Positions 3,287 through 58,992 of a stretch of DNA of 64,000 nt are shown piece by piece; within the stretch, counting starts at the first letter, position 1, and each line of letters starts with the position of its first letter. A program made the translations under genes and the position numbers. Source of the DNA: Paenibacillus sp. FSL W8-0426. GTDB lineage: Bacteria; Bacillota; Bacilli; Paenibacillales; Paenibacillaceae. The notes under the pieces are model-generated. The model saw only the letters and a list, made by a program, of their open reading frames with translations. It made no database searches and was not told the origin of the DNA. Location of the stretch: contig NZ_CP150203.1 in the NCBI RefSeq assembly GCF_037969725.1, positions 4,542,001 through 4,606,000 on the forward strand, given 5' to 3'.

Positions 3287-3520
3287 GATATAAACCGCAA
3301 AAAAAATATCCGCATGTTAATGGAGAGGCAGAACCAATCTGGAGAAGCAGAGCCGTCGCTTGAAAGCCTTCTGAAAGAAAGCTGCGTCGGAAGCATAGAC
3401 TGTTCTCCGGATTTTCCCTTTGAAAGATGGAATTTGAATAAATCTGGGGATCCCAGCGATCGGAAGATGTTTCTAACTACGTAGTGGCTCCGTGTAAAAA
3501 TCATTGGTTCAACTGATCTA
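3287..3520 (+). mobile_element. MITE-like repeat, full-length copy 1
   Basis: A 234-bp element in the plus orientation. The left end is GATATAAACCGC followed by an A-run; the right end is GGTTCAACTGATCTA. Internal blocks shared with the other copies are GGCAGAACCAATCTGGAGAAG (one base longer than the core at 12.6 kb), a CTTTCTGAAAGAAAGCTG hairpin segment, CCGGATTTTCCC and AGCGATCGGAAGATG. It appears non-coding and overlaps the last three bases of the neighbouring lipoprotein gene. Confidence 0.7.
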
Positions 3521-4210
3521 ATCGCTGCGAACCGTGGATAAAGAAACGAGAACCGGGCTGGCAAAATCGGATGCTTCCTCGCCTTTCGGATTATGAAGGC
3601 GGAACAGGAACGCATCTCCCGTTTCCGATTCCCACACCATGTAGTCCCACACTCCGTCCTCGCCCGAGGTTTGAAGATACAGCGCCGCAAAGCCCAGCGG
3701 ATGTTCCACCAGTTCGCCGCTGTAATCGGCCACCTCGCCGTGGGCACCCAGCTCTTTCTCGCCCGCGGCCCGAAGCTCTTCCAGATTGTATCCTTCAGGC
3801 AGCGGTTCGATATCTGCATAATAATCAGCGTTTTTTTCCAGCGACAGACGGCCTTTCTCCGCATCAAAAGCAAATCCGTCAAACACGTACAGGGAAAATC
3901 CTTCGCCCTGATGAAGCTGGGCGGTCAACGTCTGATTACCTTCCGGCGTCAACAGGCCAAAGCTTTCGCTCTGCGGACGTTCTGTTTCTGTAGCCGACGG
4001 TGACGTTCCCTCATGATCCTCACCCGGTTCGTTGCCCGGATTCGGTTCTCCTTCCCCAGCAGAAGGGGAAGACTCGGGCGCCTCCGTATTTTGCGATGGA
4101 GCAGATGATTCAGGCGAAGAAGACGGTGCGTTCGTTCCGGAACAAGCCGCAAGCATAAACACCAAGGCCAACATCGGTACGCTCTTCCATACGTTAGATA
4201 ACGAAATCAT
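3518..4210 (-). CDS. Putative lipoprotein of unknown function
   Basis: A 230-residue protein with a lipoprotein signal peptide: hydrophobic residues 11-20, then the lipobox LAAC with Cys23 as the lipidation site. Residues 24-80 are a Ser/Pro/Glu-rich spacer. Residues 84-230 look like a small folded domain of alternating strands (FSLYVFDGFAF, DYMVWESETGDAFLF) that I do not recognise. An extracytoplasmic, membrane-tethered location is likely. AGGGAG lies before the ATG. The stop codon falls at the outer edge of the adjacent MITE-like element, so the extreme C-terminus may have been set by that insertion. Confidence 0.7.
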   Translation of the reverse strand: MISLSNVWKSVPMLALVFMLAACSGTNAPSSSPESSAPSQNTEAPESSPSAGEGEPNPGNEPGEDHEGTSPSATETERPQSESFGLLTPEGNQTLTAQLHQGEGFSLYVFDGFAFDAEKGRLSLEKNADYYADIEPLPEGYNLEELRAAGEKELGAHGEVADYSGELVEHPLGFAALYLQTSGEDGVWDYMVWESETGDAFLFRLHNPKGEEASDFASPVLVSLSTVRSD

Positions 4211-4422
4211 GGCAGATCTCCCTTTCGATTCGGTAAGCTCACTTACCTTTGTTACACTTACATACCCAAACGCGCTCTGGGTTAAAAAGGTTACCGATAT
4301 AAACGAAAATAGGTCCTCGTCCCTCCATTTCCCATATTACAAACCATAAACATCCTTTTAGTTTTTTACCCATATACCTTGCAAGCACTTCATTGGCAAT
4401 TCAGCCAGAATGCAATGCTCAC

Positions 4423-4454
4423 AAAAAAACGGATCGAACGTTAAGTTCGATCCG
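4423..4454 (-). terminator. Intrinsic terminator of the sugar ABC operon
   Basis: CGGATCGAA and TTCGATCCG form a perfect stem with a short loop. On the minus strand it is followed by seven T residues, starting 16 nt downstream of the second permease gene. Confidence 0.85.
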
Positions 4455-4469
4455 GTTTCATGCATCTTT

Positions 4470-5282
4470 CTATCCTTTCAGCGATCCCGCCGTCATGCCT
4501 GCCACAAAATACCGCTGCAGCATGACGAACAGCGCGATCATCGGAACGGCCGTGATCAACACGCCGGCGAGCAGCATCGGATAGTTGGTGACATACTCGC
4601 CCCGGAACTGCATCAGCGCAAGCGGCAGCGTCAGCTTGGACTTGCTGCTCAGCATCAGCATCGGAATCAGCAGGTCGTTCCAGACCATCACGAGCAAAAA
4701 GGTGGTCGTGGCCGCCAGGGACGGCGCGGCCAGCGGCAGCGCGATGCGGGTATACAGCTTCCACTCACTCGCGCCGTCCATGCTGCCTGCCTCCAAAATT
4801 TCGGCATTCAGCATGCGCATGAACCCGGTCAGCATAAAGACGGAAACCGGCATCAGCATCGCGGCGGATACCACGATCAGCCCGGTCAGGCTATCCGACC
4901 ACCCCAGCGTGCGCGTCAAGGAATAGATCGGCAGCATGCTGACCTGTGAAGGTACGATGAGCCCTGCCACGAACATGGCAAACACCACCTTGCCCACACT
5001 GCCTCCCCAACGGACGATGGCGTAGGCGATCATGCTGCTGAGCAGCAGTTCGATCGCAACGGTCGAGAGCGTGACGATCAGGCTGTTGCCAAAGTACTGC
5101 CACATCGGCTGGTTGCGAAACATGCCCGTGATGTTATCCCATGTGAACGGGTCCGGCCAGCCGAAGGGGCTCGTGAAGAAATGGCTGCTTGTTTTGAACG
5201 ACGAGATGAATACAAAGTACAGCGGCACCAGAACGAGCAGTGCATAAATGAGCAGAATCAGGCGGCTAAACCATTTGAACAA
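4470..5282 (-). CDS. Carbohydrate ABC transporter permease (MalG-like)
   Basis: A 270-residue inner-membrane permease of the MalG/CUT1 type, with about six helices. The EAA loop is seen as EAGSMDGASEWKLYTRIALPLAAPS (about 163-187), the contact site for the ATPase. The start is a TTG at 5282, with AGGGAG eight bases upstream. It is the last gene of a monooxygenase, binding protein, permease, permease operon and is followed by a strong terminator. No ATP-binding subunit is encoded nearby, so a shared MsmX-type ATPase probably energises it. The substrate cannot be read from the permease. Confidence 0.9.
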   Translation of the reverse strand: MFKWFSRLILLIYALLVLVPLYFVFISSFKTSSHFFTSPFGWPDPFTWDNITGMFRNQPMWQYFGNSLIVTLSTVAIELLLSSMIAYAIVRWGGSVGKVVFAMFVAGLIVPSQVSMLPIYSLTRTLGWSDSLTGLIVVSAAMLMPVSVFMLTGFMRMLNAEILEAGSMDGASEWKLYTRIALPLAAPSLAATTTFLLVMVWNDLLIPMLMLSSKSKLTLPLALMQFRGEYVTNYPMLLAGVLITAVPMIALFVMLQRYFVAGMTAGSLKG

Positions 5283-5328
5283 CTTGAAAACTCCCTTCTG
5301 CCTCGGCTCAGTGACGGATGTTCCGATA

Positions 5329-6201
5329 TCAGTAGCTGACGCGATCGGCGCGCAGTGCCTTGAATTGCAAGAGCGTCAGCAGCGCAAGCAATACCAGGAA
5401 GATCATGGACCCCGCAGAGGCCAGACCAAACGAGTAACTGCCAAAGGCGGTATGGTAAATGTAGGTCGTCAATATTTCGGTCGCATAGTTGGGTCCACCA
5501 TCGGTCATCGTGAAGATCAGGTCGAACGCCTTGAACGATTGAATCGTCGTATACGCCACCACAATCGTTGCCGATGGAGCGAGCAGCGGCCAGGTCACGT
5601 TGCGGAACACCTGCCATCTGCCGCCTCCGTCCATACGTGCCGCTTCGTACAACTCGGCCGGGATGCTTTGCAGGCCAGCAATGAAAACGATCATCATTTG
5701 TCCGGCATGGGCCCACACCTGTACAAATGCAATGGAATAAATCGCGATGGACGGATCGCCGATCCAGTTGCGCGCCATGCTTGTCAGGCCAATCTCATTC
5801 AAGCCGTAGTTGATCAAACCGATGGACGGATCATATAAGAAAGCCCAGATCAGGCCGACCGATACCGAGGACAGAATGGCCGGCAGGAAATACAAAGCCC
5901 GTAATACAACGCTTCTTTTGCTATTGCGCACGAGCAGCAATGCCAATACCAGCGAAATGAACGTTTGTGCGATGACCACCGTCAGCATGAACTTGACGTT
6001 GTTGCCAAAGGCTTTGTGGAAAACGATGCTGCCGAGACTGTCCTTGTAGTTGTCCAACCCCACAAATGCATAGGACGGGGAAACCCCGTCCCAATCCGTA
6101 AAGGAGTAGAACAGCCCCGTCAACGTTGGAAATACGAACAGCGCAGCGTACAGCAGCAACCCGGGCAGCAGGAACAGGGATAGCTGAAACCGATTTTTCA
6201 T
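5329..6201 (-). CDS. Sugar ABC transporter permease (MalF-like)
   Basis: A 290-residue permease of the CUT1 MalF type, pairing with the downstream MalG-like subunit. Six hydrophobic helices are visible. The EAA motif region reads YEAARMDGGGRWQVFRNVTWPLLAPS (about 186-211). The gene starts with ATG three bases after the stop of the solute-binding protein gene, so the two are translationally linked. It forms half of the transmembrane channel of the importer. No substrate-specific residue could be assigned. Confidence 0.9.
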   Translation of the reverse strand: MKNRFQLSLFLLPGLLLYAALFVFPTLTGLFYSFTDWDGVSPSYAFVGLDNYKDSLGSIVFHKAFGNNVKFMLTVVIAQTFISLVLALLLVRNSKRSVVLRALYFLPAILSSVSVGLIWAFLYDPSIGLINYGLNEIGLTSMARNWIGDPSIAIYSIAFVQVWAHAGQMMIVFIAGLQSIPAELYEAARMDGGGRWQVFRNVTWPLLAPSATIVVAYTTIQSFKAFDLIFTMTDGGPNYATEILTTYIYHTAFGSYSFGLASAGSMIFLVLLALLTLLQFKALRADRVSY

Positions 6202-6204
6202 GGC

Positions 6205-7476
6205 TTATTTCCCGATATTCTGATCAATGATCGCCTGGGCTTGCTGCGCCGCCTCTTCGGGAGACGTGCCGCTCAGCACGGCCTGGATCGAGTTGGTGAC
6301 CGCCTTTTGGTTGTCCCCGTTCAGAATCGTAAAGCGCGGCTGGAATACCGTTTTTTTGCCGGACCAGCCGCCTGCCACCTGCAGCTCCGGCGAATCGTAT
6401 TTTACGTTGTCCACCGTTACGTTCTGTCCGGTCGCATTGGCATACTCGGCGGCCACGTCGGGCTTGCTCAGGAACTCGATGAACTTCTTCGCTTCCTCCG
6501 GATGTTTGGATTTGCTGTTCACTGCCAACATAAATGTGGTGGTATGCACGCCCTCATATTTGGCCTGGTCGGCGCTGACCGTAATCGGAGCAAGCAGCCC
6601 TTGTTCCAGATTCGGATTCTGCTGCTTGTTCTGTGCGAGCTGGTACGAACCGCTGGCCAGCATGGCCGCTTTCTCTTGAATGAAGAGCGCTCCGGCCGCA
6701 GCGTCTTTCGTTCCGAGCGCGTTCGGCTGGAAATATCCCTTGTCGTTCAATTCTTTGATTTGGGTCAGCGTTTTGACCCAGAATTCGTCGGTCAGCTTGG
6801 CTTCGCCGGCTTCTACTTTTGTAAAAATGTCGTCACTCGGCGCATTGTTCATAACCATCGTGTTCATGAATTGCCCTGGTCCGATATCTGCTCCGGCAAA
6901 AGCAATCGGAATAATGCCATTATCCTTCAGCGTTTGGGCTGCCTTTAGGAAACCATCCCAGTCTTTCGGCGGCGTGAGGCCGTATTTTTCGAACAGTTTG
7001 ACATTATAGATCGGCATGTTGTACACGAGCTGGTATGGAATGGCATACTGCTTGCCATCCTTCTGCCCGGCTTCGATCAGTTTCGGATTATAAGACGACA
7101 GGAAGGAAGATCCCGTCAGATCGGTGAACAGTCCCGCTTTGGCAAAGGCCTCGAACTGCGCGCCCGGAAACGAAGTAAACACGTCGCCTACCGACCCATC
7201 ACCCAGCTTGGACTGCACCGTGGACTGATACTGATCGGAAGGAAGGGTCTGCATTTCCACCTTGATGTTCGGGTTCTCCTGCTCGAAGGCGGCAATCGTT
7301 TTGTTCAGCGCCTCGGAGTCTTCCCCGCGCCAGTGAATGAAGCTGATCGTCACCTTGCCCGAAGAATCCGAGGAGCCGTTTCCTCCTTCAGCCGCCCCGC
7401 TGCCGCAAGCGGACAGCACGATGGACAAGATGAGCAGGCTGACCAAGGGAAGCAGCATTTTTTTATGTTTTTTCAT
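6205..7476 (-). CDS. Family 1 sugar-type solute-binding lipoprotein
   Basis: A 423-residue binding protein. The signal peptide ends in the lipobox LSAC with Cys24, followed by a Gly/Ser linker. The body has hallmarks of family 1 extracellular solute-binding proteins (ITISFIHW-type first strand, INVEMQTLPSDQYQ-like region, KYGLTPPKDWDGF, EEAKKFIEFL). It captures the ligand outside the cell and delivers it to the two permeases. I chose the ATG at 7476 because GGAGGT lies at correct spacing; the upstream in-frame ATG at 7482 would sit on top of that site. Its position behind an SsuD-like enzyme suggests a sulfonated or otherwise unusual sugar, which is inference. Confidence 0.88.
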   Translation of the reverse strand: MKKHKKMLLPLVSLLILSIVLSACGSGAAEGGNGSSDSSGKVTISFIHWRGEDSEALNKTIAAFEQENPNIKVEMQTLPSDQYQSTVQSKLGDGSVGDVFTSFPGAQFEAFAKAGLFTDLTGSSFLSSYNPKLIEAGQKDGKQYAIPYQLVYNMPIYNVKLFEKYGLTPPKDWDGFLKAAQTLKDNGIIPIAFAGADIGPGQFMNTMVMNNAPSDDIFTKVEAGEAKLTDEFWVKTLTQIKELNDKGYFQPNALGTKDAAAGALFIQEKAAMLASGSYQLAQNKQQNPNLEQGLLAPITVSADQAKYEGVHTTTFMLAVNSKSKHPEEAKKFIEFLSKPDVAAEYANATGQNVTVDNVKYDSPELQVAGGWSGKKTVFQPRFTILNGDNQKAVTNSIQAVLSGTSPEEAAQQAQAIIDQNIGK

Positions 7477-7520
7477 AAACATTGACCTCCAGATGAATAG
7501 TGAAATGAATTCGCCAAACC

Positions 7521-8729
7521 TTATGACTGCGGCTGATGTTGCTTACGCCGTTCGTTCCATTTGCTGTGGATGAGCGGAAGCGTTGTGCGGCCGAAATTCT
7601 CAGCCTCTTCCAGGTGCGGGTATCCCGACAGGATGAACGTTTTCACGCCAAGGTCGGCATATTCCAGCAACCGTTCCGCAACCTGGTCCGCCGTACCTAC
7701 GATCAGAATGGCACCCCCGGAACGAACGACGGACAATCCGGTCCAGAGATTGGGTCCAACAACAAACTGCTGTTTCTCGGACAACTCCCGCAGCTCGTTC
7801 TGTCTGCGCTGATTGGTAGCATCTGTCTCGGCAAATGCCGCCTTCGCTTTTTCGATCGCTTCAGGCGGCACCTTGCTGATAATCTCCCACGCGGCGGCCC
7901 ATGCTTCTTCTTCGGTTTCACGCACGAGCACTTGTGCCCGCATGCCGTAACGCATGTCGCGCTTCTGCCCCGTCTCCTGACGGATCTGCTCGCGGATCGT
8001 TTCAATTTCTTCGATCTGTTCCTGAATCCAGTCGTGCGGTTCTCCCCACATCAGGAACGTGTCCGCATGTTCCACCGCAATGCGTTTGGCAATGGGCGAG
8101 CTGCCTCCCAAATAAAAGGGCGGGTGCGGGTTTTGCACCGTTTCCGGCATGCCTACCGGCGTTTTGAAGTGGTAATATTTCCCGTTAAACTCCGTCTGTG
8201 ATCCCTGCTCTTCTTCGCCTGCTCCGCTGCCTGCAAATTCCGTCAGGTTCAGGCCGGATGCCTGGGTCCAGGAACGTTTCATCACTTCCATGTATTCGCT
8301 CGCCCGTTCATAACGTTCATCATGGGCATGAGCGAGCGGATCGCCGAGCTCTTCCAAATCTTTGACCGAACTTCCGGTGACCACGTTGATCATGGCCCGT
8401 CCGCCGGACAGCTGATCCAGAGCCGCCCCCATCCGGGCAGCGAGTACAGGAGCCACCAACCCGGGCCGCACGGCGACGAGCGGGCGCAATGTCTGCGTAT
8501 GGCTCATGACGGCCGAGCCGACGACCCATGCGTCCAGACACGCTCCGCCCGTCGGAATCAACACAAATTCAAAACCGGCCGTTTCCGCCGTCTGAGCGAC
8601 CTGCACCAGGTAATCCAGGCTTGGCTCTCTTTCCGGCGCAACGCCTACATATTTTCCGTCTCCCGCCGTCGGCAAAAACCAGCCGAACGACAATTCCTCG
8701 CGTTTGCTCTCTTCGTGTTTACTCAACAT
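7521..8729 (-). CDS. SsuD-like FMNH2-dependent (sulfonate) monooxygenase
   Basis: About 402 residues, a bacterial-luciferase-fold (LLM) protein with strong resemblance to alkanesulfonate monooxygenase SsuD: GWFLPTAGDGKY at the start, ALDQLSGGRAMINVVTG, PPFYLGGSS and ILSGYPHLEEA near the end. Counterparts of SsuD Cys54 (in ACLDAW), Arg226 (YGMRAQ), Arg297 and Tyr331 are visible. The position of SsuD His228 appears to be Gln, which hints at a different substrate. Such enzymes oxidatively cleave a C-S bond with reduced flavin, releasing sulfite. No flavin reductase is adjacent. The start at 8729 is preceded by AAAGGA. It heads an operon with a sugar-type ABC importer, so a sulfosugar is a plausible substrate; this is unproven. 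Confidence 0.82.
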   Translation of the reverse strand: MLSKHEESKREELSFGWFLPTAGDGKYVGVAPEREPSLDYLVQVAQTAETAGFEFVLIPTGGACLDAWVVGSAVMSHTQTLRPLVAVRPGLVAPVLAARMGAALDQLSGGRAMINVVTGSSVKDLEELGDPLAHAHDERYERASEYMEVMKRSWTQASGLNLTEFAGSGAGEEEQGSQTEFNGKYYHFKTPVGMPETVQNPHPPFYLGGSSPIAKRIAVEHADTFLMWGEPHDWIQEQIEEIETIREQIRQETGQKRDMRYGMRAQVLVRETEEEAWAAAWEIISKVPPEAIEKAKAAFAETDATNQRRQNELRELSEKQQFVVGPNLWTGLSVVRSGGAILIVGTADQVAERLLEYADLGVKTFILSGYPHLEEAENFGRTTLPLIHSKWNERRKQHQPQS

Positions 8730-8764
8730 GGTCATTCCTTTCATCCGATAATCCATCTGAAATG

Positions 8765-8903
8765 ATATAAGTTGAACCAATGATTCTTACACGAAGTCAC
8801 CACGCGGTCCGAACCATCTTCCGATTGGCATTATCCGGTCGCCATTATCTCAGATTTTTTTGATCCCCTTCGTATTTGTGTCATTGTTTCGTTCAACTTA
8901 TAT
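8765..8903 (-). mobile_element. MITE-like repeat, short copy with perfect 13-bp inverted ends
   Basis: The ends ATATAAGTTGAAC (8765-8777) and GTTCAACTTATAT (8891-8903) are exact inverted copies, 139 bp overall. Read on the minus strand, the interior contains AAGGGGATC, GAGATAATGGCGA and AATCGGAAGATGG, which align with the distal half of the full copies, while the proximal block is missing. The element occupies most of the gap between the monooxygenase and AraC genes, and its distal end is the leader of the monooxygenase operon. The ends could equally be regulator half-sites. Confidence 0.6.
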
Positions 8904-9135
8904 AGCTACTCATCGCTTCTGATCATCATATTCTCAAATGCCTATTAGTTAACTTGGTTTAATAAGGTATGCACATCATAACAATTGATTTGTCTGTGAT
9001 CAATGTCATTTTACGACAACTTAAATTTGTCATTTTGTGGTCAATATAAAAAACGAGACGGATTCCATCTTGAATATATACAAAACCCACCTGTATAATA
9101 GGTTATATACTTCTAGGGATAAAAGAGGTGTTCCC

Positions 9136-10008
9136 ATGATCGAGCGCATGAAGGAGGATCACCACGAATTTTTGGATATCATTTTTTTCACTCCATCCGA
9201 ATTCGAAAAATCCGGCGGAGCCTGGCCGATCCGTATCGGCCGCAACATGGCCAAAACCAACTATCACATTGGACCACGGACCACGCCGTTCCATTATTTG
9301 TTGTTCGTGCTGGAGGGCGAGGGTACATTCATTCAGAACGGGCAGCGTCATGCACTGCGTCCGAGAGATGCCTTCTGTCTTTTTCCCCACGTCACGCACG
9401 AATACTGGACCCATCCGGAAGAACCTTTGCAAAAAATATTCATCGCTTTCGACGGAAAACTCGCGACCGAGTTGCTCTCGCGCATCGGCCTTACGCCCGA
9501 CTCCCCGCACCGCTCAGGCGTACTCACGCCGGAAACAGCAAATGGCATGCGTGCTTTCATGGAGGAAGTGCGCGAGCCCAAAGGAGGTTCAAGCGACCTG
9601 GGCCGGCTTACCCGTTTTCTGGGGCTATTCGACCGGATCAGCCGTTCACCGGCAGCCCGTGAGCTTCAGCCCGACGTCTCCATCCCCTGGCTTCAAAAAG
9701 GCAAGGAGTACATGGACATTCATTTTGCGGGAGGCATTACGGTGGAAGGCGTATCGGCGCATGCCGGGGTGGATCGCACCCATTTCGCGAAACAGTTCCG
9801 CAAAGCTTACGGTCTTTCTCCCGTGCAGTATATCCAACAGCTCAAAATGAACCAGGCCAAGCGTTTGCTTGTTCAGACACCGCTGACGTTAACCGAAGTC
9901 GCGCACTCGGTCGGTTATCCGGACTTGTTTTCGTTCTCCAAAGCGTTCAAAAAGCAGGTCGGGCAGCCGCCCAACCGCTACCGCATGATGGAGCGCAGCC
10001 AACGCTGA
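9136..10008 (+). CDS. AraC family transcriptional regulator
   Basis: About 290 residues. Residues 20-135 form a cupin-type sensing domain (FHYLLFVLEGEGTFIQNG, PRDAFCLFPHVTHEY). Residues 195-290 contain the two helix-turn-helix units typical of AraC proteins (VEGVSAHAGVDRTHFAKQF and LTEVAHSVGYPDLFSFSKAF, ending KKQVGQPPNRYR). AGAGGTG precedes the ATG at 9136; an in-frame ATG at 9037 lacks a site. It is transcribed divergently from the monooxygenase-ABC operon and probably activates it in response to the imported ligand. The cupin domain suggests a small-molecule, often sugar, effector. Confidence 0.9.
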   Translation: MIERMKEDHHEFLDIIFFTPSEFEKSGGAWPIRIGRNMAKTNYHIGPRTTPFHYLLFVLEGEGTFIQNGQRHALRPRDAFCLFPHVTHEYWTHPEEPLQKIFIAFDGKLATELLSRIGLTPDSPHRSGVLTPETANGMRAFMEEVREPKGGSSDLGRLTRFLGLFDRISRSPAARELQPDVSIPWLQKGKEYMDIHFAGGITVEGVSAHAGVDRTHFAKQFRKAYGLSPVQYIQQLKMNQAKRLLVQTPLTLTEVAHSVGYPDLFSFSKAFKKQVGQPPNRYRMMERSQR

Positions 10009-10037
10009 CCCACCGTGTTTCTTGCATACACCATGAC

Positions 10038-10076
10038 AAAAAGACAAGCTTCCTTATCCTAAGGAAAGCTTGTCTT
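10038..10076 (-). terminator. Bidirectional terminator between AraC gene and TIM-barrel gene
   Basis: AAGACAAGCTTCCTTA/AAGGAAAGCTTGTCTT forms a long stem. On the minus strand it is followed by TTTTT, ending the exopolysaccharide-type locus. It also lies 30 nt after the AraC stop codon and may serve both genes. Confidence 0.75.
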
Positions 10077-10101
10077 CGAATGCCACTTCCGCTTGCGTAT
10101 A

Positions 10102-11028: not shown

Positions 11029-11033
11029 CGGCT

Positions 11034-12401: not shown

Positions 12402-12439
12402 GGTATTCCCTCCAGGCTGTATTTTTGGTTTTTTTGTAT

Positions 12440-12672
12440 TTATATAAGCCGAAAGAATGCTTCGCACCAAGACACTTCGAGTACAGTACCATCTTCTGAT
12501 CGCCGTTATCTCCTTATTTTGTTGAATCCCCTTTTGCTAAGGGGAAAATCCGGGGATAAGTTTATGCTTCCGATGCAGCTTTCTTTCAGAAAGCTTTTAG
12601 GCGACCGCTTCGCTTCTCCAGATTGGTTCTGCCTCTCCGTTAACGTGTGTATGTTTTTTGCGGTTTATATAA
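12440..12672 (-). mobile_element. MITE-like repeat, full-length copy 3
   Basis: A 233-bp element in the minus orientation between the response-regulator gene and the dehydrogenase gene. Its outer ends are TTATATAAGCCG (12440) and CGGTTTATATAA (to 12672), an imperfect inverted pair. On the minus strand it carries all blocks seen in copy 1, including AGCTTTCTGAAAGAAAGCT as a hairpin and GATCAGAAGATGGTACTG near the distal end. It fills almost all of a 357-bp gap, so its distal end forms the leader of the dehydrogenase gene. Confidence 0.7.
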
Positions 12673-12758
12673 ATATGTGTTCGTAGTATGTCTCGGCAGA
12701 CGCTGGTTTCCTGCTGTTATGCACTGTTCGTGGTTGATTGTCGATCATCCGAACCAAC

Positions 12759-13562: not shown

Positions 13563-13668
13563 GTTTTCTCCACCCTTCTCCTTTGGTTATCTATCATGGT
13601 CTTGCCGTATTGCTTCCGTTAACACCGGCTTGCCTGAACCCGGATCATGATTGGATCACGGCGGGAAC

Positions 13669-27123: not shown

Positions 27124-27180
27124 CGGCGCACCTCCTTCAAGTCCGAAACAAAAATCATAACATTGATATTATAACCCAAA

Positions 27181-27363
27181 CGTCAATCGACGTACGTTTC
27201 ATGGAAGCAGGACCTACAAAAAACAAAGACGACCATCTCAAAAATGGCCGCCCACCTATTACATCATCCTATCTCATCGATGAAATGCATTTTTAAAAGA
27301 AGTTTCTTTTGTTACACCAAACGGAGAAGACAGAAAAAACCTGGAGAAGCGAAGCGCTCGCCT
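27181..27363 (+). repeat. Duplicated segment, copy A
   Basis: About 183 bp nearly identical to 27631-27805 (small indels such as ATCATCCT versus ATCCT). It contains the ACCATCTCAAAAATGG hairpin region and runs into repeat block B (ACGGAGAAGACAG, CTGGAGAAGCGAAGCG). It lies upstream of the LytS-type kinase gene. Confidence 0.75.
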
Positions 27364-27410
27364 AAAAGCTTTCTAAAAGAAAGCTGCATCGGAAGCATAG
27401 GCTTAGCAAC
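27318..27410 (+). mobile_element. MITE-like repeat, partial copy (proximal block)
   Basis: Contains ACGGAGAAGACAG, CTGGAGAAGCGAAGCG, AAGCTTTCTAAAAGAAAGCTG and CATCGGAAGCATA, the proximal and hairpin blocks of the family, without recognisable outer ends. Confidence 0.55.
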
Positions 27411-27441
27411 AAATCCTAACCTTTAATCATACCTCCAGTTC

Positions 27442-27629
27442 GATATAAGCCATTTTAAAAATAGTCCACGTTTACGCGTAACGGAGAATGCAGAACCAAT
27501 CTGGAGAAGCGCAGCGTTCGCCTTTAGCAACGAATTTCTACCATAATCAAATTTTAAATCAGAAGAAATCCGGGGATAACAGCGATCGGAAGATGGTACT
27601 GCAGTCGGAGTGGCCACACGTCAACCTAA
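27442..27629 (+). mobile_element. MITE-like repeat, near full-length copy without hairpin block
   Basis: Begins with GATATAAGCC, a decayed left end. It contains CGGAGAATGCAGAACCAATC followed by TGGAGAAGCG, then AAATCCGGGGATAACAGCGA and TCGGAAGATGGTACTGCAG. The AAGCTTTCTGAAAG hairpin block is deleted. The copy sits between the two halves of the tandem duplication. Confidence 0.6.
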
Positions 27630-27630
27630 C

Positions 27631-27805
27631 GCCAATCACGTATGTTTCATCGAAGCAGGACCTACAAAAAACAAAGACGGCCATCTCAAAAATGGCCGCC
27701 CACCTATTACATCCTATCTCATCGATGAAATGCACTTTTAAAAGAAGTTTTTGTTACACCAAACGGAGAGGACAGAAAAAACCTGGAGAAGCGAAGCGCT
27801 CGCCT
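27631..27805 (+). repeat. Duplicated segment, copy B
   Basis: The second unit of the tandem duplication (compare 27181-27363). It begins CGCCAATCACGTATG and ends inside the next MITE-like partial copy. Its hairpin is more perfect than in copy A and probably serves as the spoVIF terminator. Confidence 0.75.
27666..27698 (-). terminator. Likely terminator of the spoVIF-like gene
   Basis: CGGCCAT and ATGGCCG form a stem with a 7-nt loop. On the minus strand it is followed by TCTTTGTTTTTT. An imperfect twin (GACCATC...ATGGCCG) lies near 27230 in the other duplicated unit. Confidence 0.55.
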
Positions 27806-27905
27806 TTAGCACCAAATTTTAACCTTATAAAACTAATCAAAAAAATTTGGAGATAACAGCGATCGGAAGGTTGTTCTGGCATCGCAGTGCTCTCGTGTAA
27901 CATAA
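27760..27905 (+). mobile_element. MITE-like repeat, partial copy (distal end kept)
   Basis: Contains ACGGAGAGGACAG, CTGGAGAAGCGAAGCG, GGAGATAACAGCGATCGGAA and a distal GCAGTGCTCTCGTGTAAC. The central hairpin block is missing. It ends shortly before the spoVIF-like gene. Confidence 0.55.
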
Positions 27906-48481: not shown

Positions 48482-48494
48482 ATTACACTCCATT

Positions 48495-48755
48495 TTATTC
48501 GTCGTTATCATCGTCTTTCGAGGAAAGACGATGGGCAACCGTCTCCGGCTGAACAGCAGACAGAATGACGTGGTCGCTATCCGTAATGATCACGGCACGC
48601 GTGCGTCTTCCGTACGTAGCATCAATCAGCATATGGCGGTCTCTGGCCTCTTGTATAATTCTCTTGATCGGCGCGGATTCCGGGCTTACGATAGAAATAA
48701 TCCGGTTCGCCGACACGATGTTACCGAATCCAATGTTAATGAGTTTGATTGCCAT
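48495..48755 (-). CDS. remA: Extracellular matrix regulator RemA (DUF370)
   Basis: An 86-residue protein. [33 protein letters not shown] and [20 protein letters not shown] are the standard RemA blocks. RemA forms octameric rings that wrap DNA and activate biofilm matrix and osmoprotection genes in B. subtilis. The highly acidic C-terminus (KDDDNDE) is common in the family. Its linkage to gmk and yicC is the same as in Bacillus. It could act on the exopolysaccharide-type locus of this window, but no site was tested. Confidence 0.95.
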
Positions 48756-48806
48756 AATCAGGTTCTTCCCCCTATACTTGCGACTCTTATGCCGAAATAT
48801 GGCCGT

Positions 48807-49706: not shown

Positions 49707-49725
49707 CGGCATCACATCCGTTACA

Positions 49726-51615: not shown

Positions 51616-51900
51616 CCTCTTCCTCCCGCCTAACTGCAATCATTTTCATACTAATGTAACACAAAAAAAGCCCAAAAACGAAGAAAAACAAAGAATTTTC
51701 GGGATTAAACCCGTCACTTCATCTATTTGCGTTTTAATGTGTACTTCCCGCATGAGCGCGAATGGCTGAATAGGCTGCAAAATCCACGCATCATCTTGTT
51801 CGATATAAACAAATGGACGGCGCAACTCCCAAGGAGCGGACCGGGACCAACCATCGTTTGTCTCGCCATGACCAAGAGCAGAAATGCAGGATTGCAACCG
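51616..51900 (-). other. Gap between dapF and yitJ, with a protein-like open frame
   Basis: About 285 bp lie between the dapF terminator and yitJ. A minus-strand frame through about 51646-51870 reads like protein (WELRRPFVYIEQDDAWILQP, ALMREVHIKTQIDEVTG) but has no ATG; in-frame TTG codons exist without a ribosome site. It may be a remnant or an unusual small gene. A weak promoter (TTGGGC, 16 bp, TAGTAT) is near 51650-51680. Confidence 0.3.
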
Positions 51901-51924
51901 AAAAAAGAGGCCCGCAGGCCTCTC
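51901..51924 (-). terminator. dapF terminator
   Basis: GAGGCC and GGCCTC form a tight hairpin. On the minus strand it is followed by at least six T residues, about 20 nt after dapF. Confidence 0.9.
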
Positions 51925-51944
51925 TTGCTTGAATAGCGCATCGC

Positions 51945-52778
51945 TTATGCGATGACTCCTTTGAAAACAACTTCCGCCGGACCTGTCATGTATACATGGT
52001 TGTCCGACTCGTTCCATTCGATATGCAAATCGCCGCCTTTGAGGCTGATGACCGCAGTGCGATCCGTGTGCCCGTTCAGCACAGAGGACACGAGCGTTGC
52101 ACATGCGCCTGTTCCGCAAGCCAGCGTTGGGCCGGCTCCCCGCTCCCATACTCTCATATCCACATGTCCGCGGTCGCGCACGGTCGCGAATTCAACGTTG
52201 ATCTTTTTCGGAAACATCGGGTGAACCTCAAGCAGCGGGCCCCATGTCGCCAGATCGAAATGGACCGCGTCGTCCACATAAATAACCGCATGAGGGTTGC
52301 CCATGGAAACGGCGGTAAATTTGAACTCGCGTCCATTCGCTTCAATCGAGTGATCCAGTACCGGATTGGCATCCACCGTCGTCGGCACCTGAAGCCCGTC
52401 CAAAATCGGCTCGCCCATGTCGACGCGCACGGATGCGACTTCCCCGTCGTTAACGTTGAGGGAGACCGGCTGCACGCCGGCGCCAATCGTTTCGATCGTG
52501 ATCTGCTCCTTGCTCATATGGCCGTGGTCGTATACGTATTTGGCTACGCAGCGGATGGCATTTCCGCACTGCTCCGCTTCCGAGCCGTCCGAATTGATGA
52601 TCCGCATCTGAAAGTCCGCCTTTTCGGAAGGCAATATATAGACGAGCCCGTCCGCACCGATGCCGAAAAACCGGTTGCACCATTGAATAGCCCGTTCAGG
52701 CGCATCGGCGGGAAGCTGCTGTTCTCCATAAATCACGATAAAATCGTTGCCAAGCCCGTGCATTTTCGTAAATTCCAT
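51945..52778 (-). CDS. dapF: Diaminopimelate epimerase
   Basis: A 277-residue enzyme with the two catalytic cysteines in EQCGNAIRCVAKY and TLACGTGACATLV. MEFTKMHGLGNDFIV at the start and NPHAVIYVDD are also typical. It converts LL- to meso-diaminopimelate for lysine and peptidoglycan synthesis. I chose the ATG at 52778 because AAGGAGTG is eight bases upstream. It stands alone between two strong terminators, so it has its own promoter within the 139-bp gap behind the P-type ATPase. Confidence 0.97.
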   Translation of the reverse strand: MEFTKMHGLGNDFIVIYGEQQLPADAPERAIQWCNRFFGIGADGLVYILPSEKADFQMRIINSDGSEAEQCGNAIRCVAKYVYDHGHMSKEQITIETIGAGVQPVSLNVNDGEVASVRVDMGEPILDGLQVPTTVDANPVLDHSIEANGREFKFTAVSMGNPHAVIYVDDAVHFDLATWGPLLEVHPMFPKKINVEFATVRDRGHVDMRVWERGAGPTLACGTGACATLVSSVLNGHTDRTAVISLKGGDLHIEWNESDNHVYMTGPAEVVFKGVIA

Positions 52779-52826
52779 TGGCTGTACACTCCTTTTGGCA
52801 TCTGCTGCCAAAGCGTTTATCGGCGT

Positions 52827-52884
52827 AAAAAAAGCTATCCGCCAAAATGCCGAAGCTCTCGCCCCGCATCATTTTGAGGATAGC
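52827..52884 (-). terminator. Terminator of the P-type ATPase gene
   Basis: GCTATCC/GGATAGC outside and CAAAATG/CATTTTG inside make a long stem. On the minus strand it is followed by seven T residues, 33 nt past the ATPase stop. Confidence 0.85.
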
Positions 52885-52917
52885 ATACCCGAAAACGGGC
52901 TTTATACGGTATTGATT

Positions 52918-55761
52918 TTATGCCGAAATTTTTGTACTTTTCGGTACGATGCGGCCCGGAGGGCCCATACGGCGGCGGTTGCGGCGACCGCCCCATACGC
53001 TTCCCGCACCCATGACAAACGTGGGGATCCCTGCGGCTACGATCGAGATCGCCCATTCGCGCAGGCCGAGCGGAACCGTCTTGAAGATCGGCTGCAATGG
53101 TGGAGCGTACATGACGACCAGCATCAGAACGACCGATGAAATAACCGCCAGCACGAGGTATTTGTTCTGCAGCGGGTTCCGGTGGAAAATAGAACGGGAG
53201 CTGCGGCAATCGAATACGTGAATGAGCTGAGCCAGAACCAATGTGGCAAACGCCACGGATTGGGCTTTGATCAGCTGGCCGGGATCATTCGGCGCTGCCT
53301 TCAGCGTCAGCCAGAACGCGCCCAACGTACATATGCCGATCAATACCCCTCGGCTGATGATTTTCCACCCGAGCCTGCGGGCAAAAATATTTTCTTTGGC
53401 CCCGCGCGGCTTGTGTTCCATCAAATCCTTTTCCGGTTGGTCGACTCCAAGCGCCATTGCCGGCAATCCGTCCGTAACCAGATTCACCCACAAAATTTGA
53501 ATAGGCACGAGCGGCAGCGGCAATCCCATCATCATGGCGAAGAACATCGTCAGGATTTCTCCCACGTTTGAAGCGAGTAAATATCGGATGAACTTGCGAA
53601 TGTTCTCGTAAATATTGCGTCCTTCTTCGATGGCAGCGACGATCGTCGAGAAATTGTCATCGCTCAAAATCAGCGCGGAGGCTTCTTTGGTAACGTCGGT
53701 ACCCGTGATGCCCATCGAAATGCCGATATCCGCCGCTTTGATGGCCGGAGCATCGTTGACTCCGTCCCCCGTCATAGCAACGACGTGTCCCTTGCGTTGG
53801 AACGCCTTGACGATGCGCAGCTTATGTTCCGGGGATACCCGCGAGAAGACATAAGCGTTCTCCACTTGTTTATCCAGCTGTTCGTCCGTCATGCCGTCCA
53901 GCTGCTGCCCGCTCAAGGAACTGCCTCCGCGCGGGAGGATGCCGAGCTGATGTGCAATCGCCTCGGCTGTCGTGCCATGATCCCCTGTAATCATGACGGT
54001 ACGGATGCCGGCACGGCGGCACGTGGCGATCGCATCCCGCACTTCCCGGCGCGGAGGGTCGATCATGCCTGCCAGGCCAACGAAGACAAGCTGGTTCTCG
54101 GCGGCTTGCTCATCTTCGACTCTCTCGTCAGGTCGGACCTCCCTGAAGGCCATGCCCAGTACGCGCAAGGCGGAAGCGGCCATATTTTCGTTGGCTGCCA
54201 TTACCTTTTGGCGCAATGTGCCCGTGAAAGGCACCACTTGACCTTCCCATAAAATGTAGTTGCACTGTCCAATGAGCAAATCGGGGGCTCCTTTGGTATA
54301 TACCATCCGGCCGCCCTGATGATGAACGAGAACGGACATGCGTTTTCGCTCGGAATCGAACGGGAATTCCACTTGACGAGCGTACAGATCTTTCAGGCTG
54401 GCGGGAGAAAGTCCCATTTTCGTGGCCAGCGTCACTAGCGCGCCCTCGGTTGGATCACCTTTCAATTCCCAAATGATGTTATTCTCGCCGTGCTCGACGT
54501 CGCTGCTTCCCTTTTTGGCATCCTTCTTGGCGTCTTTGCCTTTCTTTTTGTTTCGCTGATCTGCATCGCTGACCGGTGAAATGCTGGCATTGTTGCACAG
54601 CGCGCTGATTTGCAGCAATCGGCGCAGCGTCTGATCGCTCTTCAATTCCAACGTCCGTCCATTCTCCAGCATCTGCCCCTCTGGAGCGTATCCGTCCCCG
54701 GTTACCTTGATGCTGCGGCCTTCCACCCACACGTCCGTTACCGTCATTTTGTTCTGGGTCAGCGTGCCGGTCTTGTCCGAGCAAATGACCGAAGCACAGC
54801 CCAGCGTTTCAACGGAAGGCAGCTTGCGGACGATCGCTTTCCGTTTGATCATGCGCTGTACGCCGAGCGCAAGGGCAATTGTGACGATGGCTGGCAGCCC
54901 TTCGGGAATTGCGGCCACGGCGAGGCTGACCCCGGCCAGGAACATGCCCACCGCAGGCTGTCCATGCAGGATGCCTGCTACGACAACCATCACGGTTAAC
55001 GCCAGGGCAACCATGATCAAAATTTTGCCCAATTGCTCCAGACGGTGCTGCAGCGGCGTTTCCTGTTCTTCGGTATTTTGGATCAGGTCGGCAATTTTGC
55101 CCATTTCGGTATCCATGCCGGTACGAATGACAATCCCTTTTCCCGTACCCCGGGTTACCATGGTACCCATAAAGCCGATGTTTTTCTGGTCCCCGAGCGG
55201 CACTGCCGCATCCGGGATCGGGTTGCAGTGTTTGCTGACCGGCACCGATTCACCCGTAAGGGCGGATTCCTCGACGTCCAGGCTGTTCGTTTCGAACCAA
55301 CGCACGTCGGCCGGGACGCGGTCCCCGCTTTCCACAAACACGATATCGCCCGGCACCAACAGCTTGGCTGCCAGATGAACCTCTTTTCCCGATCGCCATA
55401 CCTTGGCCGCAGGAGCGGACAGCTGTTTCAAGGCCCGCAGCGAACGTTCGGCCCGAAATTCCTGCACGAAGCCCAGAATGGCGTTAAGCACAATGATGGC
55501 CACGATCGTGATCGCATCCAAATACTCTCCCAGCAACCCGGATACCAGCGTTGCCCCCATCAGCACCAGTACCATGAAATCCTTGAACTGGTTCAGCAGC
55601 AGCGTGATCGGGGATATGCGTTTTCCTTCGCTCAGCTCGTTAGAACCTGCTGTTTTCCTTTTCTCCGCCGCAGCTTCATCCGTTAAACCAACCTCCGGAC
55701 TGACGCCAAGCATTTGCTGGAGCTCCTCAACCCTCAGTTGATGCCAATTGGTCTGTTCCAT
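52918..55761 (-). CDS. Ca2+-translocating P-type ATPase (YloB-like, SERCA type)
   Basis: About 947 residues with the type IIA pump layout. It has an actuator TGES loop ([12 protein letters not shown]), phosphorylated Asp in [12 protein letters not shown], nucleotide-binding KGAPDLL, hinge [12 protein letters not shown] and about ten membrane helices with PEGLPAIV in M4 and [13 protein letters not shown] in M6. It exports Ca2+ using ATP, as YloB does in B. subtilis spores. A lysine-rich insertion ([16 protein letters not shown], about residues 415-435) in the nucleotide-binding domain is unusual. I chose the ATG at 55761, which has GGGAGGG upstream. Gene order next to rqcH (yloA) is conserved. 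Confidence 0.93.
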
Positions 55762-56123
55762 GCTTCCAGATTCCCTCCCAATCTGTTTTCCCGTGCGAGA
55801 CGTTCGGTCATGCTGCGCCGACACATGGCGTACAGGTTGTACGCCCTGCCGGACAAACTGCCTGCTCTATATCTATTCGGACAGGACCCCAATTATCACC
55901 CGGAAGGCGAATCCTTTCCCTGATGCCCGGAATAAGCTAAAATAAAAGTCTGAGGAAAACCCGTGACGGTTGCCGTGATTCCGTTTCGCCACCAGGCCGC
56001 CCGGGCAAAGCAGATTGAACACTTTTTTACATATCCGCAAATGCTAACGTGTTCAAGGAACGATCCACAGATTACCGACAGAGCATTTCACGAAATGCTT
56101 GCATAGAGAGGAAGTTGAAAAAC
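55762..56123. other. Divergent intergenic region between ATPase and rqcH
   Basis: About 360 bp carrying the promoters of both genes. A short plus-strand frame (from about 55811 to 55923, MAYRLYALPDKLPALYLFG) looks protein-like but has no ribosome site. No riboswitch or terminator was recognised. Confidence 0.35.
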
Positions 56124-57875
56124 ATGGCATTGGACGGCATCGTTACACGCGCCATCGTACATGAACTCCAGGGCTGCAAAGGCGGCCGCATCAGCAAAAT
56201 CCATCAGCCGAACGATCATGACGTGGTCCTGACCTTACGGGCGCAGCGAGGAAACAGCAGGCTGCTTGTCTCGGCAAGCCCGACCTACCCGCGCGTGCAT
56301 TTTACCGAAAAAACGTTTATCAACCCCGCCGAAGCACCGATGTTCTGCATGTTGCTGCGGAAACATTGCGAAGGCGGCATTATCGAGGACATTCGTCAAG
56401 TCGGCATGGAACGCATCATTCACATCGACGTGCGTCAGCGCGACGAACTCGGAGATGTCTCGAGCAAACGCATCGTCATCGAACTGATGGGACGCCACAG
56501 CAATATTGTGCTGCTCGATCCGGCTACCGGAACGATTCTGGACGGCATTCATCATGTTACCCCTTCCATCAGCAGCTACCGGGTCATCATGCCCGGATTT
56601 TCCTACACTGCGCCGCCGGAGCAGCACAAACTGAACCCGCTTGAAGCCACACGGGAACAATTTGCGTTCAGCTTGCAGTCTTCCGAAGAGGAAGCCGCCC
56701 GCTGGTTCGTCGGTTCGTTCAGTGGGCTTAGTCCCCTCGTCGCCGGAGAAATCACATATCGCGCGTTCGGGACAGACGGGGAGACGTCGAATGGAACGAA
56801 AGATACGGAGCAATTATGGAATGCATTTCGTTCCGTCATGGACGATGTGCAGGAAAACCGATACACGCCGATGACGGGGGCCAATGCCAAAGGAAAATTT
56901 GTCTTCTCCGCCATCTCGCTGCATGGGATTCAAGATTCCGTCAAAACCTATGACACCATCAGCCAATGCATGGAAGATTTTTACGGCGACAAAGCCGAAC
57001 GGGACAGCGTCAAGCAAAAGGTCAGCGACCTGTTGCGTTTTATTCAGAACGAGCGGAGCAAAAACGTCAAAAAACTCGACAACCTGCACAAGGATTTGCT
57101 TGAAGCCGACGACGCGGACAAATACAGGATATGGGGCGAGCTGCTGTTTGCCTCCTTGCACCAGATCAACAAAGGCGACACCCAGGCCGAGCTCGTGAAC
57201 TTCTATGACGAGGACCAGGCGACCGTCACCATTCCGCTGGACCCGCTGCTGACGCCGTCGGACAATGCCCAGCGTTACTTCAAGCGTTACAACAAATACA
57301 AAAACAGCCTGGCGGTCATTCATGAACAACTCGGCAAGACGAAGGAAGAAATCGTCTATATGGACAACCTGCTGCAGCAGCTTTCCAGCGCATCCATGAG
57401 CGATATCGAGGAAATTCGCGACGAGCTGGTACAGCAGGGTTACCTGCGCGACCGGGCCAAAAAAGGCAAAAAGAAAAAGAAGAACGATCGCCCTACCGTG
57501 CATCAGTTTACTTCCTCGGAAGGCATCGACATTCTGGTCGGCAAAAACAATCTGCAGAACGAATACGTGACGAACCGCTTGGCTTCCGCCAACGACACGT
57601 GGCTGCATACCAAGGACATTCCCGGCTCTCACGTCGTCATTCGCAGCCAGGAATTCGGCGATGCCACGCTGGAAGAGGCGGCCCAGCTGGCCGCATATTT
57701 CAGTCAAGCCAAGGAATCCAGCAGCGTGCCCGTCGACTACACATACATCCGCCATGTTCGCAAGCCGAACGGGGCTAAACCGGGTTTCGTCATTTACGAT
57801 AATCAGAAAACGCTGTTTGTTACACCGAACGAAGAGTTGATTAAAAGCCTGCCTTCTACCGTCAAGAACGGTTAA
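56124..57875 (+). CDS. rqcH: Rqc2 homolog RqcH (NFACT protein, YloA)
   Basis: A 583-residue protein. The NFACT-N part starts MALDGIVTRAIVHELQG and includes GGRISKIHQPNDHDVVLTLRA, PPMFCMLLRKH-like APMFCMLLRKHCEGG and ELMGRHSNIVLLD. A helix-hairpin-helix and a long coiled coil (about 290-420) follow. A basic stretch (KKGKKKKKNDR) leads to the NFACT-R part with ILVGKNNLQNEYVTNRLAS and DTWLHTKDIPGSHVVIRS. RqcH recruits tRNA-Ala to stalled 50S subunits for alanine tailing and degradation of the nascent chain. The ATG at 56124 follows GAGAGGAAG. A bidirectional terminator follows. Confidence 0.95.
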   Translation: MALDGIVTRAIVHELQGCKGGRISKIHQPNDHDVVLTLRAQRGNSRLLVSASPTYPRVHFTEKTFINPAEAPMFCMLLRKHCEGGIIEDIRQVGMERIIHIDVRQRDELGDVSSKRIVIELMGRHSNIVLLDPATGTILDGIHHVTPSISSYRVIMPGFSYTAPPEQHKLNPLEATREQFAFSLQSSEEEAARWFVGSFSGLSPLVAGEITYRAFGTDGETSNGTKDTEQLWNAFRSVMDDVQENRYTPMTGANAKGKFVFSAISLHGIQDSVKTYDTISQCMEDFYGDKAERDSVKQKVSDLLRFIQNERSKNVKKLDNLHKDLLEADDADKYRIWGELLFASLHQINKGDTQAELVNFYDEDQATVTIPLDPLLTPSDNAQRYFKRYNKYKNSLAVIHEQLGKTKEEIVYMDNLLQQLSSASMSDIEEIRDELVQQGYLRDRAKKGKKKKKNDRPTVHQFTSSEGIDILVGKNNLQNEYVTNRLASANDTWLHTKDIPGSHVVIRSQEFGDATLEEAAQLAAYFSQAKESSSVPVDYTYIRHVRKPNGAKPGFVIYDNQKTLFVTPNEELIKSLPSTVKNG

Positions 57876-57918
57876 AGGTGTTGCTCCCCCATTTATGTAC
57901 CGATGATGCATACGCATT

Positions 57919-57963
57919 AAAAAATCCCGCAAGCAGCCTTGTTTGACTGCTCGCGGGATTTTT
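57919..57963. terminator. Bidirectional terminator between rqcH and the PHP gene
   Basis: AAAATCCCGC and GCGGGATTTT with an inner GCAG/CTGC extension form a strong stem between convergent genes, with T-runs on both strands. Confidence 0.92.
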
Positions 57964-58032
57964 ATGTCGTTTCATGCCAAAACAAGGCTCTGCTTATGTG
58001 TCATGGTTAACTGTGGAGACATACATTGGCGC

Positions 58033-58908
58033 CTAGCTAACGCCTGTTTCATTTCGCTCTGCTGCAGCCTTCAGCTTGGCGAGCACATCGGCAGAGACCG
58101 TCCGGCTTCCCAAATCGCCATGAAAAACAACCCCTTGCCGCTCACCATGATAATCCGACCCTCCCGTCTCGATCAGGTCAAACTCGCCGGCGAACTGCGC
58201 GTACCTGCGTTCTTCCTCTGGCCCATGGTCGGAATGAAAGACCTCGATGCCATCAGGCTTGGCCTGGTGCAATATATCCCTAACCAGATCATCATCGCCG
58301 TACAGGCCCGGATGTGCGATCACCGCCGCACCGCCCGCTTCCCTAATCCACTGGCATGCATCTTGCGGCGTTACCCGGGGTACCGATACGAAGCCCGGCT
58401 TGCCTTCAGCCAAATATTGATCGAACGCGTCTTTCATGTTGGCAGCGTATCCTTTGCGTACCAACACGTCAGCCATGTGCGGTCTGCCGATGCTTTCGTC
58501 GGGCTGAAGCGGCCGTCCAAGTGCATCGATGACTTCTTGCCATGTGATATCCAGCCCCAGTTCCCGTAATTTCGCGATGATTTTATGGTTGCGCTGGTCT
58601 CTTGCCTCCCGCAGGCCGCGAAGTCTCTCCAAAAACCGAACATCGTTCGGGTCCATGTAATAACCGAGTACGTGAATGTCCTTGCCGCCGGCACGGGTAC
58701 TGATTTCCACCCCAGGCACGACGTCGATCCCTTCTTCCAATCCTGCTTGAACCGCTTCGGCAATGCCCGCTACCGTATCATGATCCGTAATCGCTACCGC
58801 AGCGAGTCCCTTCCGCTTGGCCAACTTCACGTTCTCCGCAGGCGGCTGCATGCCGTCCGAGGCTTGCGTATGGGTATGCAGGTCGCATTGTCCATTCAGT
58901 GGTTTCAT
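58033..58908 (-). CDS. PHP-domain phosphoesterase (YciV/TrpH-like)
   Basis: About 291 residues. Metal-binding PHP motifs: CDLHTHTQASDGM at the start, VAITDHDTVAG, PGVEISTRAGGKDIHVLGYY, VIAHPGLYGDDDLV and ETGGSDYHGERQ near the end. The YciV/RNase AM branch hydrolyses 3',5'-nucleoside bisphosphates and short RNA 5' ends. I chose the ATG at 58908 (AAGGAG upstream). Its leader consists of a fragment of the MITE-like repeat, which separates it from the LysR gene. Confidence 0.9.
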   Translation of the reverse strand: MKPLNGQCDLHTHTQASDGMQPPAENVKLAKRKGLAAVAITDHDTVAGIAEAVQAGLEEGIDVVPGVEISTRAGGKDIHVLGYYMDPNDVRFLERLRGLREARDQRNHKIIAKLRELGLDITWQEVIDALGRPLQPDESIGRPHMADVLVRKGYAANMKDAFDQYLAEGKPGFVSVPRVTPQDACQWIREAGGAAVIAHPGLYGDDDLVRDILHQAKPDGIEVFHSDHGPEEERRYAQFAGEFDLIETGGSDYHGERQGVVFHGDLGSRTVSADVLAKLKAAAERNETGVS

Positions 58909-58930
58909 CCTTAACATCTCCTTTATCATC

Positions 58931-58992
58931 TATATAAACCGCACTAAACAATCACACAAGGCACTGCGAGTGCAGTACCATCTTCCGATCGC
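58931..58992 (-). mobile_element. MITE-like repeat remnant (distal end)
   Basis: A 62-bp remnant: TATATAAACCGC (58931-58942) is an intact outer end, followed inward by ACTGC/GCAGT pairing and CCATCTTCCGATCGCTT, the conserved distal block. It abuts the LysR stop codon at 58993 and forms the DNA immediately upstream of the PHP gene. Confidence 0.6.

Follow-up and report, generated by a model that had tools for sequence, protein, structure and literature searches.

The window analysed here is a 64-kb stretch of the chromosome of Paenibacillus sp. FSL W8-0426 (positions 4,542,001-4,606,000 of the single-contig 6.9-Mb genome, G000), and it contains several copies of a dispersed non-coding repeat with inverted ends. 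A comparison of this repeat between genomes revealed a folded core that covaries, is strand-specific and is conserved across an order, the Paenibacillales. Moreover, the core is conserved in place at an orthologous phage locus and the copies show a sense bias with respect to the neighbouring genes. We consider it probable, on balance, that the repeat represents a structured cis-acting RNA element that is carried by several ends of the type found in miniature inverted-repeat transposable elements (MITEs), i.e. that it forms a set of non-autonomous mobile repeats with a conserved folded RNA core. A first-pass annotation, made from the sequence alone, had described at least seven copies or remnants in the window as a MITE-like family moved by a transposase encoded elsewhere.

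A covarying core conserved across the order

The repeat is abundant in its own genome. A search with the copy at 12438-12675 yielded at least 40 matches (the best 40 of 181 candidates), and the central hairpin module occurs 78 times genome-wide against 0 times in a reversed control. Ends of type TATATAAACCGCANNAANNANNCAC are found 140 times (1 in the control) and those of type TATATARRTTGAACNNNANA 93 times (10 in the control). In 39 of 40 further genome stretches the module lies within a recognisable element, several of them truncated; the remaining stretch (L138) was chosen for two short forms, both of which are present. The first-pass annotation had expected more than 20 copies, and had named copies confined to the window or a lack of shared ends as outcomes that speak against a mobile family; neither of the latter was found. 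The copies are short, mostly intergenic and lack a credible open reading frame (ORF). Their terminal inverted repeats are paired in the genome of the window, and different ends occur in the genomes G088, G240 and G094.

Outside this genome it is the interior of the element that is retained. The 12440 copy, used as DNA query, matched 18 of 39 genomes (its own included), all of a single genus, and many of the matches in other species begin inside the ends. At four loci (L044-L047) unrelated outer sequence surrounds the same core. Covariance model R1 was built from 33 cores. Of the 296 genomes of the order, 225 gave a match (with no more than 10 scored in each), and these represent 30 of the 48 genera. 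With a second covariance model (R2), 38 genomes out of 398 sampled from the class were matched, all of them in the order, as were 7 out of 398 sampled from the phylum, all of them in the family; members of the order are part of either sample, and weak members at a greater distance could have escaped the strict filters. When named genomes were scanned for an exact pattern, at least 119 stretches came back; the 80 titles listed are Paenibacillus, Saccharibacillus or a Paenibacillaceae metagenome-assembled genome, except for one 'Bacillus sp. FJAT-27264'. Two queries of the INPHARED phages gave no match, and a search of plasmids gave one partial match. The end types vary with the lineage and include TATATAAACCGCA and TATATARGTTGAAC, plus a third type in the 27.7-kb copy of the window; elsewhere the ends read GAGGCCACTGAAAAA in G088, GAAGTNCGGTGAATAA in G240 and GGCTCAAAACAATAATCAGTGCTTG in G094. 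The ends had been predicted to be constant across relatives, yet they differ between and within lineages, and what persists across the order is the folded interior, whereas the reverse would be expected of a plain MITE.

Comparison showed that the core has the layout of a conserved rod. The outer helix P1 is followed by a symmetric 3x3 GNA/GNA internal loop, a short helix of two pairs, a bulged GC(GNA)GC mini-hairpin, helix P2 (UCGC/GCGA), an optional P3 hairpin module (38 nt) and a freely covarying helix P4. One G of the GNA/GNA loop faces A in 44 of 45 rows, and the unpaired positions of the core are nearly invariant across genera. The structure was evaluated on a MAFFT alignment (A1) of 33 loci, chosen by hand from 58 and not fitted to the structure. 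In this alignment 95.4% of the cells are paired and both sides have changed in 20 of 40 pairs, against a mean of 6.5 (standard deviation 1.6) in shuffles and at most 13 in slid versions; the covariation score is 0.179 versus 0.088. When partners are slid the pairing falls to 36-48%, a comparison that favours the proposed structure to some extent as it was chosen partly from the same sequences. The covariation on an unfitted alignment is beyond that of both shuffled and slid controls, as expected for a conserved structured RNA.

Alignment A3 includes more genera, but was fitted to model R1. It was built from 52 sources minus L022, L067, L108, L114-L116 and L118, with four low-scoring second matches excluded by a stricter cut-off. 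Here 96.7% of the cells are paired, 27 of 40 pairs have double changes (257 cells versus 65) and the covariation score is 0.421 versus 0.146. G-U combinations outnumber A-C combinations by 57 to 12 when one near-constant G-U pair is excluded (84 to 12 when it is included); the model tolerates G-U, which introduces a modest bias, and the excess indicates that the modelled strand is the folding strand. For the bulge, a pairing of A3 columns 20-23 with 29-32 was considered first but gave way to the mini-hairpin plus P2b, which pairs better.

No family of Rfam 15, known ribozymes, HEARO and riboswitches included, was matched by the core: the window gave no match at gathering score, and five loci searched at E <= 10 gave three chance-level matches, none of them on a core. 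The sole Rfam match above a family cut-off was 23S rRNA in L115, beside a weak P3 match. At this locus (genome G052) a P3-like hairpin lies at or just past the 3' end of the 23S rRNA (R1 match 1501-1619; Rfam rRNA to 1537); L116 in G062 was noted along with it. By eye, P3-like hairpins (AAAGY-stem-RCT-nACTTCG) are also seen just beyond the ends of elements, on one or both sides, at L163, L172 and L180 (G240) and similarly at L199 and L200 (G183). The P3 module may have a life of its own outside the elements.

Conservation in place and orientation

The core motif is present on 31 viral contigs, 29 of which were confirmed by R2; these comprise a group of 20, a group of 7 and two singles. Alignment A4 holds 19 of the 20 orthologs, L365 having been dropped beforehand (weaker, 55.9 bits). 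The aligned loci have one origin and include 18 distinct element sequences. The frame upstream of the element closes with the ITGE-type tail of the xkdX product in each of the 19, and within 400 nt there follows a CCTCGG..CCGAGG hairpin; the upstream product matches Phage_XkdX, as tested in one contig (L359). Mean identity is 87.0% for the whole element, or 93.5% without the P4 loop and 63.8% for the P4 loop, a division made after the data were seen. Among the flanking regions, the 3' portion of the xkdX coding region reaches 81.8%, the spacer 61.1% and the 60 nt downstream of the element 45.2%. The P4 pairs that vary among these orthologs toggle mainly via G-U, which is not expected from template switching. 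Downstream of the element, tandem repeats of about 42 bp made from its 3' end are present in L352, L361, L368, L374 and L376.

In the group of 7 the element adjoins the tail-tube gene in every case (product matching PF09393, L350). Three of the seven (L356, L358, L363) have this gene bracketed by two sense copies that start some 660 nt apart, and in L350, L364 and L369 one copy precedes it. A similar arrangement is found in the genome of the window, where a ferritin gene (PF00210) lies between two sense short forms (L138 1603-2705, G000:C1:2629102-2630204). The strongest clue to a function is that tail-tube and ferritin genes are bracketed in this way, although these cases were met in passing and were not counted against a background.

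Conservation in place was also observed at another locus. In two genomes of genus g15 (L094/L105) the element occupies the orthologous gap between ilvC and a leuA-like gene (genes identified in L094) and is kept where most of the upstream flank fails to align. By eye, two P4 pairs are compensated between these loci, and P3 is present in one genome only.

The orientation relative to the genes is biased. Among 69 classified loci of the window's genome (L138 left out) 35 lie in tandem gene contexts, 28 sense and 7 antisense. For the pattern-scan stretches the numbers are 57 sense and 25 antisense in 82 tandem contexts (p=5e-4), based on 126 examined matches with genes called by a simple script and with species and sites that are not fully independent. 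The other 44 matches lie between convergent or divergent genes (17), at an edge (8), inside an ORF (6) or without a flanking gene (13).

From these data we infer the following course of events. The outer inverted repeats, which vary between and within lineages, would be moved in trans by various transposases encoded elsewhere. The element would land between genes, mostly in sense orientation, and its core would be transcribed as part of the mRNA. There it would act in cis, most likely by directing the processing or stability of the transcript and thereby fixing where it ends or how much of one neighbouring cistron is present relative to the next. Copies with a useful role would be kept in place, for instance in one prophage lineage, and others would decay. 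A more specific proposal would be that of a new order-wide structured RNA class, cargo of unrelated transposon ends and domesticated by prophages, that serves as a portable cis-acting device for mRNA segmentation or stability, for example of tail-tube or ferritin transcripts versus their neighbours; this we put forward tentatively, as a possibility somewhat short of even.

Mobility and competing explanations

The clearest traces of movement are found in G088, where both ends were identified in 14 of 16 copies and two copies have no recognisable end pair. Exact direct repeats of 8-9 bp border 5 of the 14, and 3 further copies agree at 7 of 8 positions (by eye). The longest flank repeat has a mean length of 6.1 versus 3.4 in mismatched flanks, and 8 of the 14 copies reach 6 bp versus 4.4% of mismatched flank pairs. 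At L211 (G088:C25) an element is inserted in the 3' part of another copy with an 8-bp duplication, CCATGCAG. By eye, three copies of this genome (L207, L209, L210) are each situated in the loop of a terminator-like hairpin, possibly a favoured target in G088. In G000 the ends form TATATA palindromes, and a duplication of TA is therefore indistinguishable from the end itself.

Empty sites in relatives had been foreseen. Three congeners (G012, G003, G001) lack the 12440 copy in the gap that corresponds to its location, but the gaps are too diverged to reveal the exact site. Window positions 721-27805 and 27934-64000 can be aligned with the same-species genome G140 at 98.7% and 99.4%, respectively, and neither stretch is interrupted by a gap of at least 15 bp; these ungapped stretches contain six of the seven copies, and the seventh (27771) is at the alignment break. 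Within 721-64000 no copy is polymorphic between the two genomes, besides the break at 27.8 kb.

No autonomous partner with the same ends was present among 100 of the 140 TATATAAACCGCANNAANNANNCAC-type and 93 of the 93 TATATARRTTGAACNNNANA-type ends that were listed; by eye, close inward-facing end pairs in this genome are about 125-250 bp apart. Two wider pairs were considered as transposase carriers. One encloses two short elements and the ferritin gene, and for the other (weak, 573 bp, L391) neither a core nor a transposase was seen. For an insertion sequence (IS) with G088 ends, no pair 0.5-3.5 kb apart occurred among 100 of 110 ends listed, and a guess at an IS1182-type transposase (PF05598, the only transposase family searched) gave 0 matches in G000, G088 and G094. 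A protein partner beside the core was sought by all-against-all comparison of ORFs (loci up to L160), which gave no family of more than 12 members. The largest cluster spans 12 loci and the next two, which we take to be ABC permeases, 8 loci each. The picture of a MITE moved by a transposase encoded elsewhere is supported in part, by the many copies, their inverted ends, the lack of an ORF, the absence of the 12440 copy from three congeners and the duplications and nesting in G088; it falls short where an autonomous element with the same ends is concerned, and in the conservation of the interior instead of the ends.

A number of observations weigh against a mobile RNA element that acts in cis. 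Clear target duplications were seen in one lineage (8-9 bp in G088), with no clear one in G240, and no cognate transposase emerged from the end-pair listings or the PF05598 search. G088 also has mini-forms, some 100 bp long, in which both ends are present but P2b and P4 are missing, and the core therefore seems dispensable for movement. The 3287 copy (apparently), the L094/L105 copy relative to its operon, and the copy that follows the tail-tube gene in L378 are antisense, and retained antisense copies are not predicted by a strict cis-RNA role. Replication is a possible confounder of the orientation bias, as 56 of the 78 modules are oriented with the leading strand (presumed from an origin placed at coordinate 0), and the sense copies at tandem genes on the lagging strand (5:1) make up a small sample. 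Full double changes were found in 0 pairs among the 19 phage orthologs. Finally, template switching can give long palindromes matching changes, which weakens the argument from covariation.

This last point leads to the first rival explanation, a plain MITE family without RNA function, in which template-switch (quasipalindrome) repair maintains the pairing of the long palindromes by writing one change into both arms. Compensatory changes can arise through template switching (PMC8794818), and the paired ends, the G088 duplications and, in G240, changes confined to single copies that recur as mirror images in the two outer arms (by eye) are all in line with such a family. Nevertheless, it leaves unexplained the near-invariant unpaired positions across genera, the excess of G-U over A-C and the conservation in place at the phage locus, and we consider it unlikely. 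Even less credit goes to a family of structured RNAs (ribozymes or regulatory RNAs) that is disseminated along with genes and phages and whose 'terminal repeats' are just a variable outer helix. The conserved core with a free outer helix, the R2-confirmed viral contigs (29 of 31) and the conserved phage loci fit this explanation, but the 78 modules with common end sequences in one genome, the target duplications and the nested copy at L211 do not. Equally improbable is that the core is read as single-stranded DNA for mobility in the manner of IS200/IS605, with replication as the source of the orientation bias: the leading-strand preference and the mini-hairpin form GCGNAGC, presumably an unusually stable DNA hairpin, agree with it, whereas the coreless mini-forms with both ends and the sense copies on the lagging strand do not. 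Moreover, IS200/IS605 elements are not known to make target duplications, a hallmark that would hold for RAYT-driven movement as well, and duplications are present in G088, the one lineage clearly tested.

Known repeats and the copies in the window

The usual view of non-coding mobile repeats is that they are IS debris and that nothing but their ends counts. In the present repeat the ends can be exchanged, and it is the folded interior that endures across the order, with scores of copies in a genome and at fixed loci in prophages. If the interpretation as a mobile cis-acting RNA is true, an RNA part would spread by transposition and then be recruited for gene control, and each genome would offer dozens of natural replicates for testing how transposons seed RNA regulation. 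HEARO, the IscB omega-RNA (RF02033), is likewise a structured RNA on mobile elements with many ORF-less copies; unlike HEARO, the core of the present repeat has no Rfam match at E 10 in five loci. No recurrent neighbour gene was found beside the cores, a nuclease gene not having been specifically searched for. BOX repeats have a modular make-up, and we know of no sequence that ERIC, BOX, RUP or Correia elements have in common with this repeat (the sequences were not compared).

No description of the repeat was found in the open-access literature at the level of titles and the first lines of abstracts, and a prior description is possible. In kind it would belong with bcr1-bcr18 of the Bacillus cereus group and with reviewed MITEs, as far as these are described in excerpts of the sources (PMC3446304, PMC10969869). 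The bcr repeats are intergenic, bcr1-3 are MITE-like, bcr10 and bcr18 have a conserved RNA structure, and 51% and 40% of copies in two strains lie in mRNA (excerpts of PMC3446304); the likeness is one of description. Judging by a cited title, bcr1 is specific to the B. cereus group, whereas here one core spans an order with unrelated ends. ERIC, BOX, RUP and Correia are also short mobile repeats with inverted ends, and effects on mRNA cleavage or decay are reported for Correia and ERIC; end-swapping around a conserved core, as observed here, is not described for the four in the parts available of PMC10969869. The REP/BIME sequences with their RAYT transposases are dispersed extragenic palindromes for which mRNA stabilisation has been hypothesised, but REPs measure 20-40 bp and have GTAG or CGTC tags (excerpts of PMC3733652), whereas the present repeat measures 110-230 bp and has inverted ends.

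Within the window, all seven places named in the first-pass annotation contain the sequences it described. At up to 3 mismatches GATCGGAAGANGGTNCTG has 9 matches versus 0.54 expected, 6 of them within named copies, and CTGGAGAAGCGAAGCG has 7 versus 0.78 expected, 5 of them within named copies; both scans exceed all 100 shuffles. R2 recognised five places at E < 1e-14 (Table 1). The two others are remnants with matching ends, both ends at 8764-8904 and one end at 58931-58955. The copies at 27489 and 27771, listed earlier among 'shorter derivatives', are not the result of simple decay but a 'short form' without one 38-nt hairpin module that occurs in other genera of the order too. The 3287 copy is present as described, except that its ends, as read by eye, are hybrid: ATATAAACCGC-type on the 5' side and GTTCAAC-type on the 3' side.

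Table 1. Copies and remnants of the repeat in the window
Feature	Positions	Strand	R2 match	Evidence
Full-length 'long form' copy, TATATAA-type ends	12440..12672	-	12482-12633	R2 core 142.8 bits
Conserved structured core (P1, P2, mini-hairpin, P3, P4) of the 12440 copy	12482..12633	-		R2 alignment
Long-form copy, hybrid ends (ACCGC-type 5', GTTCAAC-type 3')	3287..3520	+	3327-3477	R2 106.9 bits
P3-hairpin copy, 3' half truncated, starts in local duplication	27329..27431	+	27329-27431	R2 67.1 bits
Short-form copy without P3 module	27442..27629	+	27489-27603	R2 85.1 bits
Short-form copy, third end type (AAAGAAGTTTTTGTTACAC / GTGTAACATAATGAATTTCTTT, by eye)	27760..27905	+	27771-27880	R2 91.8 bits
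Deletion derivative, GTTGAAC-type ends, without 5' half of core	8764..8904	-		no R2 match
62-bp fragment of an element's 3' end	58931..58992	-		no R2 match

A stretch of 188 bp is duplicated in the window at 92.6% identity (27176-27363 and 27625-27805). The duplication, at which the alignment with G140 is broken, holds the starts of the copies at 27329 and 27771 together with their flanks, and a third copy sits between the two.

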